Made by a program: the position numbers and the translations under genes. From assembly GCA_019459145.1 (NCBI GenBank), contig JAIBEK010000062.1, positions 1 through 64,000 of the forward strand: a stretch of DNA of 64,000 nt, given 5' to 3'. Shown piece after piece: positions 16,473 to 21,216 of this stretch. The stretch comes from Arenimonas sp. Its GTDB lineage: Bacteria > Pseudomonadota > Alphaproteobacteria > Rhizobiales > Rhizobiaceae. The notes below the pieces were generated by a model. The model was not told the origin of the DNA. It saw nothing but the letters and a program-made list of their open reading frames with translations, and did no database searches. Numbering within the stretch: the stretch's first letter is position 1; every line of letters begins with the position of its first letter.

Positions 16473-16826
16473 TCAGCGTCTGGCAGGCGGCCGCAAGAGT
16501 GATTGCGCGGTATAGACGAGGATGGCGATGCCGACCGCCCCCATTGCCGCGACGCCGAACAGCACGATGACGTCGACCGGACCGCCGATGTCGCGCAGCC
16601 CCGACCGGGTGATCGTCTGGACAAAGACGACAGCCGCCACCGCACCGATCGGCATTGATAGCTGCGCCCACAGGAACTTCTTCCACGACACCTGCCGGTC
16701 GCGGATCAGCACATAGAGATAGGCCAGCGTGACAAGCGCAGCGACGGCCACCATCACCCAGAATAGGGTGCGGCCAAAAATCTCCTCGAACACCGCGATC
16801 AACGTCCCGAAAGTCAAATCCTTCAT
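16473..16826 (-). CDS. DUF5368-family membrane protein
   Basis: The ATG at 16826 (MKDLTFGTLIAVFEEIFG) gives 117 residues; the track start at 17015 lies inside the neighbouring gene. There are three hydrophobic segments (about 20-40, 55-70 and 85-110). The opening motif and length match what I recall of DUF5368, a small membrane protein of unknown function. The ATG lies 12 bases after the stop of the sulfide:quinone oxidoreductase-like gene, so the two form an operon and may work together at the membrane, for example in anchoring or electron transfer. That role is inference. Confidence 0.75.
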   Translation of the reverse strand: MKDLTFGTLIAVFEEIFGRTLFWVMVAVAALVTLAYLYVLIRDRQVSWKKFLWAQLSMPIGAVAAVVFVQTITRSGLRDIGGPVDVIVLFGVAAMGAVGIAILVYTAQSLLRPPARR

Positions 16827-16837
16827 GGCATCCTCCT

Positions 16838-18142
16838 TCAGGCGCGGCCGCGCAGCATGGCATTGTAGGTCGGTTTCAGGGCGATCTCCTTCATCAGCCA
16901 GGAAATCCACAATTCCTCGAGCGGCGCGATGATGCCGGGGAAGGACGGGGTCAGATTGTTGTTGTAGTCGAACTCGACCAGCATTGCCTTGCCGACGCGG
17001 GTAATCAGCGGGCACGACGTGTAGCCGTCATAGCGCGCCGTGCTTTCCTTGCCCTCGATCTGGGCCGCCAATTGCTCGACGGCAACCGGCACCTGCCACT
17101 TGACGCTGGCGGCCGTCTTGCCCTTCGGCACGCCGGCGATGTCGCCGACGGCAAAGACGTCCGGATAGCGCACATGGCGCAGCGTGTGTTTGTCCACCTC
17201 GACCCAGCCCTGATCGACCCAGATGCCTTCCTTCCACGGCAGCGGGCTGTTCATCACCACTTCGGGCGCGCGCATCGGCGGGATCACATTGGTGAAATCA
17301 TAGCCGATCTCCTTGTCGCCCTCCGGCGTCTTGAAGGTGGCGATCTTGCGGCCCGGATCGATCTTGGTCATGACGTGGTCGTAGACCGGATCGATGCCGC
17401 GCTCCTCGAAAAGCATGCGCACCTTCTCGCTGACGATCGGCACGGAGAAGAAGGTCTTGTTCTGCGCCGCATAGATCATCTTCGACTTGCTGCGCGTGCC
17501 CTTCTGAACCGCATAGTCGTCGGTCAGGAAGGCGTACTTCAACGGCGCACCAGCGCACTTCATCTCGGTTGCCGGACGGGAAAACAGTGCCACCCCGCCC
17601 TTGTCGGTAAAGCGGCTCATTTCCTCCCAGGTCTTGGCCGCATAGTCGGGGCCGGCATAGACCGAGCCGATACCGTCCTTGCCGATCAGGTCAAGCGACA
17701 TACCCTCGATCGCGCCATAGTCGAGGCGAAGCCCAGTGGCGACGAACAGGAAATCATAGGCCACGGCCTTGCCGCTTTCGGTCACGACCTGCTTGCCCTC
17801 CGGATCGATCTCGGCGGCAGCCTCCTCGATCCATTCGATATCGCGCGGCAGCCACTCGCCGGTGGTCGAGACCGAATAGTTAGCCGACTTCAGACCTGCC
17901 GCGATCAGCGTGAAGCCTGGCTGGTAGAAATGCTGCTTGCGGCCGTCGATGATGATAATCTTGGCACCGTCGAAGCGTTGCGTCAGCCGATTGGCCAGCG
18001 CCGTCCCGGCCGCACCCGCCCCTAGGATCACGATCCGCGCCGACGTCTTGGTCCGGGCGGCCGAGGCGCTGGAAAGAGGGGCGGCGGCGAGCGTCGCCCC
18101 GGTGGCCGCGAGGCCGAGGAATTGTCTGCGATTGGCCTTCAA
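16838..18142 (-). CDS. Sulfide:quinone oxidoreductase-like flavoprotein with Tat leader
   Basis: A 434-residue FAD-dependent pyridine-nucleotide-disulfide-type oxidoreductase. It opens with a twin-arginine leader (MKANRRQFLGLAATGATLAA), then the FAD fold VILGAGAAGTALANRL. Cys196 (TEMKCAGAP) and Cys377 (GYTSCPL) are the two cysteines expected at the sulfide-oxidising site of Sqr enzymes. The FAD-closing motif is VFAVGDIAGVPKGK. It would oxidise sulfide or persulfide at the membrane and pass electrons to quinone. The Tat leader is unusual for Sqr, though related flavocytochrome c sulfide dehydrogenases carry one. It heads an operon with the DUF5368 gene. A perfect FNR box lies about 190 bases upstream. 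Confidence 0.8.
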   Translation of the reverse strand: MKANRRQFLGLAATGATLAAAPLSSASAARTKTSARIVILGAGAAGTALANRLTQRFDGAKIIIIDGRKQHFYQPGFTLIAAGLKSANYSVSTTGEWLPRDIEWIEEAAAEIDPEGKQVVTESGKAVAYDFLFVATGLRLDYGAIEGMSLDLIGKDGIGSVYAGPDYAAKTWEEMSRFTDKGGVALFSRPATEMKCAGAPLKYAFLTDDYAVQKGTRSKSKMIYAAQNKTFFSVPIVSEKVRMLFEERGIDPVYDHVMTKIDPGRKIATFKTPEGDKEIGYDFTNVIPPMRAPEVVMNSPLPWKEGIWVDQGWVEVDKHTLRHVRYPDVFAVGDIAGVPKGKTAASVKWQVPVAVEQLAAQIEGKESTARYDGYTSCPLITRVGKAMLVEFDYNNNLTPSFPGIIAPLEELWISWLMKEIALKPTYNAMLRGRA

Positions 18143-18572
18143 ACTCTTGTCCTCCCGAATGGGTCATCCGTGTTTCATTTGTCACGTCGCGGCAGGGTCA
18201 TGATTTGTGATCTTGGTCCATTTGAAGCCCGGCAGCTTTGACACTGGTCAAGTGCGCGACATGTGCAAGCCCATGCGGCCAGCACACATTAAGAAATTCA
18301 TATGCATCTAGGACGCGGCGCCGTCCTTGATATAAATCAATATCATGCATCGAAAATACACATTTCCCGGCCGTCATCCTGCCGATGCGCAAAGGTTCCT
18401 CGGATCAAGACAGGTGCCAGGAGATTTGCGGGTTCAAGGCGGGCTGGTCCCGGCCCCGCCGAAGCGACAACCGAAAACATCTCATTCTTCGCCCCATCTT
18501 TGTGGGCACGCATTGCGCGGGCCCGATCCGAGCCTTCCCTCGAGAGGGACTGCGGGATCCCGCTCGCGGAAG
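18143..18572. other. Intergenic region upstream of the sqr-like gene
   Basis: These 430 bases lie between the sqr-like start and the severed 3' end of the IS-interrupted membrane gene. They hold the FNR/FixK box at 18327-18340. The ORFs listed here are overlapping, Arg/Ser-rich and without ribosome sites, and I accept none of them. Confidence 0.5.
18327..18340. promoter_or_regulatory. Perfect FNR/FixK box
   Basis: TTGATATAAATCAA matches the FNR/FixK/Anr consensus TTGAT-N4-ATCAA exactly, with full dyad symmetry. It is centred about 191 bases upstream of the sqr-like start codon, which would place a class II promoter start near 18292. It suggests low-oxygen activation of the sqr-DUF5368 operon. 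Confidence 0.65.
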
Positions 18573-18610
18573 CTATTTCTGGCTGGTCAGCGTCAGATAC
18601 ATCAGCACTA

Positions 18611-19662
18611 GAGCGCGTCCGCTTTACTCGGGTTCATATCCGCACGATCTGAAGTAGTTGGCGCATTCTTGTGGTTCGAACAGCGTGACGATGCGGCCGA
18701 GGGTATTCCATAAGCCGTCGACCGTTCGCTCGGCTTTGGCGCGCAAGGCAGCCTTGAGTTTTGCGAACGCCTTCTCGATGGGGTTGAAGTCGGGACTGTA
18801 GGGAGGAAGGTACATCAACCGGCATCCAGCGCCTTCGATTGCGTGACGCACGCCTTCCGCTTTGTGTGCAGGCAGATTGTCCATGATGACGATGTCGCCC
18901 GGTGCCAAGGTTGGAATGAGAACCTGCTGGACGTAGGCCTGGAATGCTGCCCCGTTCATCGCACCGTCCAAGACCATGGGTGCTGTCATGCCGGATAGCC
19001 TGAGCGCACCGGTAAACGTCGTTGTCTTCCAATGGCCGTGCGGGACCGGGGAGCGGCATCGCTCTCCGCAAGGTGCCCGTCCGCGAAGTCGAGACATCTT
19101 GGTACTCAGGCCTGTTTCATCGATGAAGACGAGGCGCGCCGGGTCGAGGTCGAGCTGGCCGTCAAACCAGTCCTGGCGACGCTTCAGGAGATCGGGACGC
19201 TCCTGCTCCAATGCATGTGCGGTCTTTTTTTGAAAGTCCAGCCGCGCTTTCGCAGCCAGACGTCAAGTGCGCTGCGACCGATGGAAACGGCTCTTTCCTG
19301 ACGCAATCGCAGGACCATCTCGTTGAGCGTGATATCCTTTTCCTCTTCGATCATGCCGATGATGAAGTCCTCGTGTACATCCAGGCGTGAACCGCCCCGC
19401 CGACCCTGCCTCAAAGGCGTCAACCGACCAGCGCGCGCACTCGCAATCCAGGCGATGGCTGTCGAAATCCCAATCCCAAATCGGGCTGCCGCTGAACGCG
19501 CCGACATCCCATCCCGTGACGCAGCCAGTACGCGGCTACGCAGATCATCACTGAAAGCTCGGGTCATATTGCCTCCGACCAAATCAACAGTCGGGGCGAT
19601 GGAATCAGAATTCCGCAGCCAGGGGAATCCTCAATACGATTCCGCGTTCAATGGACGTGCTC
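18611..19662 (-). mobile_element. IS630-family insertion sequence (1052 bp)
   Basis: The element is bounded by TA on both sides (18609-18610 and 19663-19664), the target duplication of IS630/Tc1-mariner elements. The ends are inverted repeats: GAGCGCGTCC at the left and, read from the right, GAGCACGTCC, with weaker similarity further in. It encodes one DDE transposase in two overlapping frames. The size is typical of the family. It lies inside a small membrane protein gene. The near-perfect ends, clean duplication and full-length transposase frames suggest a recent insertion. Confidence 0.93.
18624..19567 (-). CDS. IS630-family transposase, two frames joined by likely -1 frameshift
   Basis: The first frame starts at the ATG at 19567 (GGAGG upstream) and holds the helix-turn-helix half (MTRAFSDDLRSRVLAASRDG, then RSAAARFGIGISTAIAW). 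It leads to TTC-AAA-AAA-A at 19225-19231 (T7 on the given strand). The catalytic half lies in the -1 frame and continues KTAHALEQERPDLLKRRQDW. It carries the DDE residues in VFIDETGLSTKM, IVIMDNLPAHK and PPYSPDFNPIEKAF. Slippage on the A7 run gives one 314-residue protein of normal IS630 length. No other lesion is seen, so it is probably active. The alternative reading is a simple inactivating frameshift. Confidence 0.88.
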
Positions 19663-20067
19663 TAGATAGACGACGGGCATGATGCCGAGGACGATAAAGG
19701 CCATGGGGGTCGAGATGCCACAATTCGTCGCCCGCATGAGATAACCGAGATAGATCACAGCCGCAAAGATCACGGCGATTCCGACATACCAGGGCAGAAG
19801 TCGATTGTGCTTGCTCATTTCGGTCATGGTGCGTCCCCTCTGAAGAATAGATGAAAACTCTATTGCCAACGCAGGCCGAGTGCAGACACTGTTTTCGTCA
19901 GCCGATATGGCACCGCTGCACTCTATGCCCTGCGTCGAAAACCTATTACCTTCCGCGGATCATACCGTCAGCATGGCGGAAGTAAAGTTCCGGCACGATC
20001 AGCAGCGAACCACCCGCCTGCTTTGGCGGCATCAGATGCGGATATCATTCACACACAAGGAAACCAG

Positions 20068-21216
20068 GTGACATTTCTCAGCCCCGTCCGGTTCCGTGTC
20101 GTCATCGCCGTCATGCTCGCGACCGCCTTCCTGCTGCTGCAATTCCTCCTCCCGGCGGACACACCATCCACGGCGCAGGGTGACCCGCAAGGAGCGCCGC
20201 TCCAGGTCTTCTTTCATCCGGAGTGCCCGCACTGCCATGACGCCATCGAATTCCTCAGGTCTCAGCAAACCGTCCGATACCAGTTGCATGACGTCTCGAC
20301 AGCGAGCGGCGAAAGGCTGCTGCTGGACTTTGCCGGTAAACACGGCATTGCCGAGGATCAGCTGGGCGTCCCCCTTTTCGTTTGCGGCTCGAACTACCTC
20401 ATCGGCTATGAAAGCGCCGAAACAACCGGGCGGGCGCTTTTGTCCTGCCGCGCCGGCAATCCTTCGGCGGAAGGACTGCCGGCCGATCCCTCACGGGTTC
20501 ATGTCCCCCTGATCGGAGAGATCGATCCTTCCCGCTATTCGCTTCTGGCGCTCACCGCGCTGATGGGCTTGTCCGACGGCTTCAATCCGTGCGCCATGTG
20601 GGTGCTGCTCTACCTGATTTCGCTGATCGCAGGCCTGCAGGATCGCCGCAAGATCTGGTGGCTCGTCGGCACCTTCGTCCTTTCGTCGGGCCTGCTCTAT
20701 TTCCTCTTCATGACGGCCTGGCTGAACACCTTCCTGTTCATCGGCTATACGAAGATCCTGACCGAACTCATTGCCCTCGTCGCCATCGGCTGCGGCGCGG
20801 ATCATCTCTATCAGCTTGCCGTCAGCCGTGGCGTGATCGTCTGCGAAGTCGGCGACGCCGCTCAGCGCCAGCGTACCCTCGAGCGCGCCCGCGCGCTGGT
20901 TGCCGCCCCGGTGGGCGTCGCGAGCCTGGTCATGATCGTCGGGCTGGCGCTGACGGTCAACGCCATCGAATTCGTCTGCTCGGCCGCCCTGCCCGCCATC
21001 TATACCCATATCCTCAGCCTGCTCGACCTGCCGGCCCTCCAGTATTATGGCTATATCGGGCTCTATGTGGCCTTCTTCATGCTGGACGATCTCATCATCT
21101 TCGGCCTCGCCGCCTTCGCCGTGCAGAAGGTGATCGACACACGCTACGCGGCCTTCAGCCGCGCCGTCGGCGGCGTGATGCTCATTGGCCTGGGAATCTG
21201 GATGCTTCTCCGTTGA
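20068..21216 (+). CDS. Thioredoxin-like domain fused to a CcdA/DsbD-type membrane domain
   Basis: A GTG start at 20068, with AAGGA upstream, gives 382 residues and puts a membrane anchor (VVIAVMLATAFLLLQFLL) near the N terminus; the track start at 20023 adds 15 residues ahead of it. A periplasmic thioredoxin/glutaredoxin-like domain follows with the active site FFHPECPHCHDAI (Cys53, Cys56). After about residue 150 come six or so hydrophobic helices with the paired CcdA/DsbD-like cysteine motifs DGFNPCAMWVLLYL and IEFVCSAALPAIYT. The layout suggests a protein that passes reducing power across the membrane to its own thioredoxin domain. DsbD has the opposite domain order (thioredoxin at the C terminus). 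Partner substrates are unknown. It is divergent from the IS-split membrane gene. Confidence 0.82.
   Translation: MTFLSPVRFRVVIAVMLATAFLLLQFLLPADTPSTAQGDPQGAPLQVFFHPECPHCHDAIEFLRSQQTVRYQLHDVSTASGERLLLDFAGKHGIAEDQLGVPLFVCGSNYLIGYESAETTGRALLSCRAGNPSAEGLPADPSRVHVPLIGEIDPSRYSLLALTALMGLSDGFNPCAMWVLLYLISLIAGLQDRRKIWWLVGTFVLSSGLLYFLFMTAWLNTFLFIGYTKILTELIALVAIGCGADHLYQLAVSRGVIVCEVGDAAQRQRTLERARALVAAPVGVASLVMIVGLALTVNAIEFVCSAALPAIYTHILSLLDLPALQYYGYIGLYVAFFMLDDLIIFGLAAFAVQKVIDTRYAAFSRAVGGVMLIGLGIWMLLR

Follow-up and report, generated by a model that had tools for sequence, protein, structure and literature searches.

The stretch of DNA analysed here (hereafter the window; 64,000 nucleotides) contains a small minus-strand gene into which a transposase-bearing element has been placed, with putative redox genes on either side. 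The features that matter to the argument are as follows.

16838–18142, minus strand: FAD/NAD oxidoreductase resembling type III sulfide:quinone reductase (SQR-like; 226 bits, cut-off 525)
18575–18610, minus strand: small membrane protein gene, codons 56–66 and stop (VLMYLTLTSQK), cut off by the insertion sequence (IS)
18609–18610: TA target duplication, left copy (target CTAG; the uninterrupted site is visible in L016)
18611–19662 (1052 bp), minus strand (that of the transposase): IS630-family insertion sequence, with imperfect inverted ends GAGC[G/A]CGTCC..., a DDE_3 match and TA on both sides
18624–19211, minus strand: transposase ORF B, carrying the DDE domain (PF13358 DDE_3, 4.6e-36) and lying in the −1 frame with respect to ORF A
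19184–19567, minus strand: transposase ORF A, with the helix-turn-helix region (HTH_23 and HTH_Tnp_IS630 below cut-off); ATG 19567 is assumed as the start
19224–19231, minus strand: A7G slippery run at which a presumed −1 shift would link the two transposase ORFs into a 314-aa fusion
19663–19664: TA target duplication, right copy
19663–19827, minus strand: small membrane protein gene, codons 1–55 (first helix, Cys36 loop, most of the second helix), reading into the IS and stopping after EHVH (59 aa)
20023–21216, plus strand: divergent neighbour combining a glutaredoxin-like domain with a DsbD/CcdA-like membrane part; L056 and L058 have relatives of it close to the small gene

The inserted element and its target

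A reading of this DNA from sequence alone had proposed a 1052-bp IS630 element with a TA duplication, and the element indeed has exact limits (18611–19662) with TA at both flanks. Its termini form an imperfect inverted repeat, matching at 17 of the first 26 positions, a pair that a repeat search of the window did not list. IS630 membership is further indicated by the DDE_3 catalytic domain with a helix-turn-helix N-terminus (the helix-turn-helix models being weak and below cut-off) and by the TA duplication, evident in the flanks and from the sister species Ciceribacter naphthalenivorans, in which the site is uninterrupted. The two transposase ORFs overlap at the A7G run and, joined via a −1 shift, would yield a 314-aa protein; the run and the division into two frames are also present in the related copies L037 and L038, and frameshifting has been reported for the IS630 family (PMC5009743). 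Three other related IS copies (L039, L041 and L042) have A6 in place of the A7G run.

TA duplication has been demonstrated for ISY100, a relative of IS630 (PMC2170065), and TA within CTAG is the IS630 target preference, going by the title of Tenzen and Ohtsubo (1991) as cited in that paper. All six IS ends within the present genome conform to insertion in CTAG, and the one exception among the IS ends checked in other genomes is the right end of L038. The tetranucleotide occurs 14 times in the 64-kb window (positions 1–64000), compared with roughly 200 occurrences expected by base composition alone. The element is an ordinary IS630-family member, and its insertion is routine.

At four contig ends of the same genome, 139–140 bp match the IS termini with 100% identity and are in each case flanked by TAG, indicating at least two further copies at the same CTAG target, a lower bound since other copies were counted from contig ends only. 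Elements with ~90% identity occur in C. naphthalenivorans and also on plasmids of Agrobacterium and Rhizobium, the Agrobacterium plasmid element (90% identical) being annotated as an IS630 family transposase. One copy of the same IS (G003:C18, 51307–53738) is apparently itself split by ~1.4 kb of other DNA. The suggestion that the insertion was a recent event agrees with the complete identity of its ends to the four other IS ends and with a residual frame free of decay, though these observations supply no date.

A conserved small membrane protein and its truncated allele

When the flanks are joined and one TA is dropped, a continuous minus-strand frame of 66 codons results, MTEMSKHNRLLPWYVGIAVIFAAVIYLGYLMRATNCGISTPMAFIVLGIMPVVYL followed by VLMYLTLTSQK and a stop (that is, ...VVYL joined to VLMYLTLTSQK), so that the rebuild claimed by the sequence-only reading is exact. 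The same reading had the element splitting the gene; the IS does lie inside it, but rather than dividing it into halves it clips the frame after residue 55 of 66, leaving a possible 59-residue product in which four IS codons (EHVH) precede an in-frame stop.

The rebuilt frame has an intact counterpart in C. naphthalenivorans, where the site is uninterrupted (L016 11675–11635 versus window 18572–18612, 88% match; L016 11637–11429 versus window 19664–19874, 83% match). The encoded 66-aa protein (NZ_BJZP01000037) is 92% identical to the rebuilt frame, and over 66 codons dN is 0.034 and dS 0.76 (dN/dS about 0.04). Codon 55 is CTG in that species, and the CTAG target is therefore absent there. Beyond C. 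naphthalenivorans, 19 further Alphaproteobacteria loci (6 in other Alphaproteobacteria and 13 in the sampled order and class genomes) encode full-length relatives that span the junction, with whole-length matches at 38–59% identity. Together with the uninterrupted site, these relatives indicate that the rebuilt frame did not arise by chance; homologues confined to one half, the outcome that had been named in advance as fatal to the rebuild, were not what the search returned.

A chance open reading frame might have been suspected of a sequence so short, which scores above cut-off against no Pfam or NCBIfam family and is absent from 61 of the 63 genus genomes. We regard the probability of this as close to nil: the suspicion is refuted by the conserved homologues, with their invariant columns and the low dN/dS, and a purine-rich stretch, AGAGGGGA, precedes the ATG. 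The expectation that close relatives should carry the gene intact held for C. naphthalenivorans but for only that one of the 62 other sampled genus genomes, the gene being present in 2 of 63 when the window's own is counted. No homologue of the small protein was found on plasmids. One genome (G219) has three copies on three short contigs (L051, L052 and L053), of which L051 and L053 have common surroundings; an RNA 3'-phosphate cyclase lies near the small gene in L051. A match in G198 (L059, E 2e-4) lacks the motif described below and was left out of the relatives.

Across 20 sequences, ten columns are invariant (P12, W13, G16, A23, C36, P51, Y54, L57, M58 and L60) and six nearly so (L10, L55, Y59, T61, S64 and Q65). 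The rebuilt frame carries the PW-x-x-G, Cys36 and C-terminal motif of a two-helix PW-G-C-YLVLMYLTLTSQ family, whereas the interrupted allele itself is without the C-terminal motif. An AlphaFold model of moderate confidence (mean pLDDT 73.5) places helices at residues 11–34 and 40–64, in keeping with the two-helix small membrane protein first proposed. That proposal had also called the protein undescribed, and the searches bear this out: Pfam gave no match at cut-off and NCBIfam none, a PDB fold search returned nothing, and we found no papers on the tail motif. Weak matches to DUF2304, DUF5693 and others fell below cut-off and were judged to be chance, as was a PDB sequence match to photosystem II PsbM (best E 0.32). 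The family is unnamed, sparsely distributed across Alphaproteobacteria and lacks a model in the annotation libraries that were searched.

We consider it highly probable that an IS630-family insertion at the Leu55–Val56 CTAG, with duplication of TA, clipped a conserved small membrane protein gene. An element of this family (Tc1/mariner-type), presumed active from its identical ends at other sites in the genome, would have jumped by cut-and-paste into the TA within the CTAG that the Leu55 and Val56 codons (CTA GTG) form in the 66-residue two-helix gene; the TA is now present twice, and EHVH stands in place of the final 11 residues.

The lost tail, VLMYLTLTSQK, comprises 7 of the 16 conserved columns (L57, M58, Y59, L60, T61, S64 and Q65) together with the end of helix 2, and because the IS removes both, the interrupted allele is probably non-functional in this strain. 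Alternatively, the 59-residue version might still insert into the membrane and work, making the insertion near-neutral. Only 11 residues are lost before the stop that follows the four IS codons; helix 1 is kept, the loop retains Cys36, and helix 2 retains 16 residues and still peaks at a hydropathy of 1.86, so partial function is conceivable. We nevertheless think a working short version unlikely, given that the tail is the best conserved stretch of the family and that the two Ciceribacter copies differ with a dN far lower than dS.

Neighbouring genes and possible roles

The sqr-like and thioredoxin/DsbD-like neighbours noted at the outset are both present, as an SQR-like gene scoring below its family cut-off and a glutaredoxin-DsbD-like gene. 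Among 21 loci no conserved operon was found around the small gene, and the only neighbour to recur across lineages is the glutaredoxin-DsbD-like gene (in the window, L056 and L058). Of the order genomes, 4 of the 7 that have the small gene also have this one, versus 11 of the 390 that do not (Fisher p 4e-5); in the class sample the corresponding figures are 2 of 4 and 10 of 380. Both sets of counts take no account of kinship, and one family supplies three of the four order genomes; the profile used was built from loci chosen for adjacency, the class pair among them. The two genes lie close together in three of the seven genomes that hold both. Their co-occurrence is suggestive only. Sulfur-related neighbours appear as single cases elsewhere (a persulfide-dioxygenase-like protein in L012 and a PAPS-reductase domain in L058). 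In the window, a DUF5368 protein (16473–17015) directly follows the SQR-like gene; we found no papers on this domain.

The recurrence of a glutaredoxin-DsbD-like gene nearby, together with the SQR-like neighbour here, raises the possibility that the native protein serves thiol or sulfide redox in an accessory capacity at the membrane, acting via the invariant loop Cys36. We put this forward tentatively and think it doubtful, since the neighbours of most homologues are unrelated and C. naphthalenivorans, which has the small gene, has no glutaredoxin-DsbD-like gene. Equally tentative is the broader proposal that the two-helix family might partner a membrane relay of the glutaredoxin-DsbD-like type in thiol or sulfide redox of the periplasm, in which case the strain would be a natural C-terminal truncation.

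A role in cytochrome bd oxidase, whether as one of its subunits or in its assembly, in place of thiol redox, is hinted at by C. naphthalenivorans, in which the small gene is just upstream of cydDCAB, and cydDCAB sits between it and the SQR-like gene. We judge this quite improbable: in the window's genome cydDCAB is apart from the small gene, on another contig (C45) without it, and cyd genes lie beside the small gene at no other locus examined. The cydDCAB coordinates are 11792–18740 in L016 (C. naphthalenivorans) and 5565–12510 in L071; a second copy of cydA (G020:C22) is present in C. naphthalenivorans as well.

Whatever the role of the small protein, the insertion serves as a pointer, revealing a conserved membrane protein family missing from the searched annotation libraries and marking its C-terminal motif as the part worth testing. 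The natural truncated allele here and the intact allele in the sister species form a comparison pair. It is the unnamed family, rather than the insertion, that is worth following.

Comparison with known systems

The small protein belongs with an unnamed family of 62–66-residue, two-helix proteins, sharing through its rebuilt frame the RNRLLPWYIG start, Cys36 and the P-x-VYLVLMYLTLTSQ tail; the window copy differs from that family in that its tail is missing owing to the IS. CydX-like subunits of cytochrome bd oxidase are small, have one helix and are encoded with cydAB. The present protein, likened to them by description and not by sequence, resembles them in being a small membrane protein with cydDCAB adjacent in one relative, but has two helices instead of one and no cyd link elsewhere, and we therefore do not count it among them. 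The element itself resembles members of the IS630 family (Tc1/mariner superfamily), such as IS630 of Shigella sonnei and ISY100, in its DDE_3 transposase, TA duplication, CTAG target and length of about 1.05 kb; it differs from ISY100, which has a single transposase gene, in encoding its transposase in two frames with a presumed −1 shift at the A7G run.
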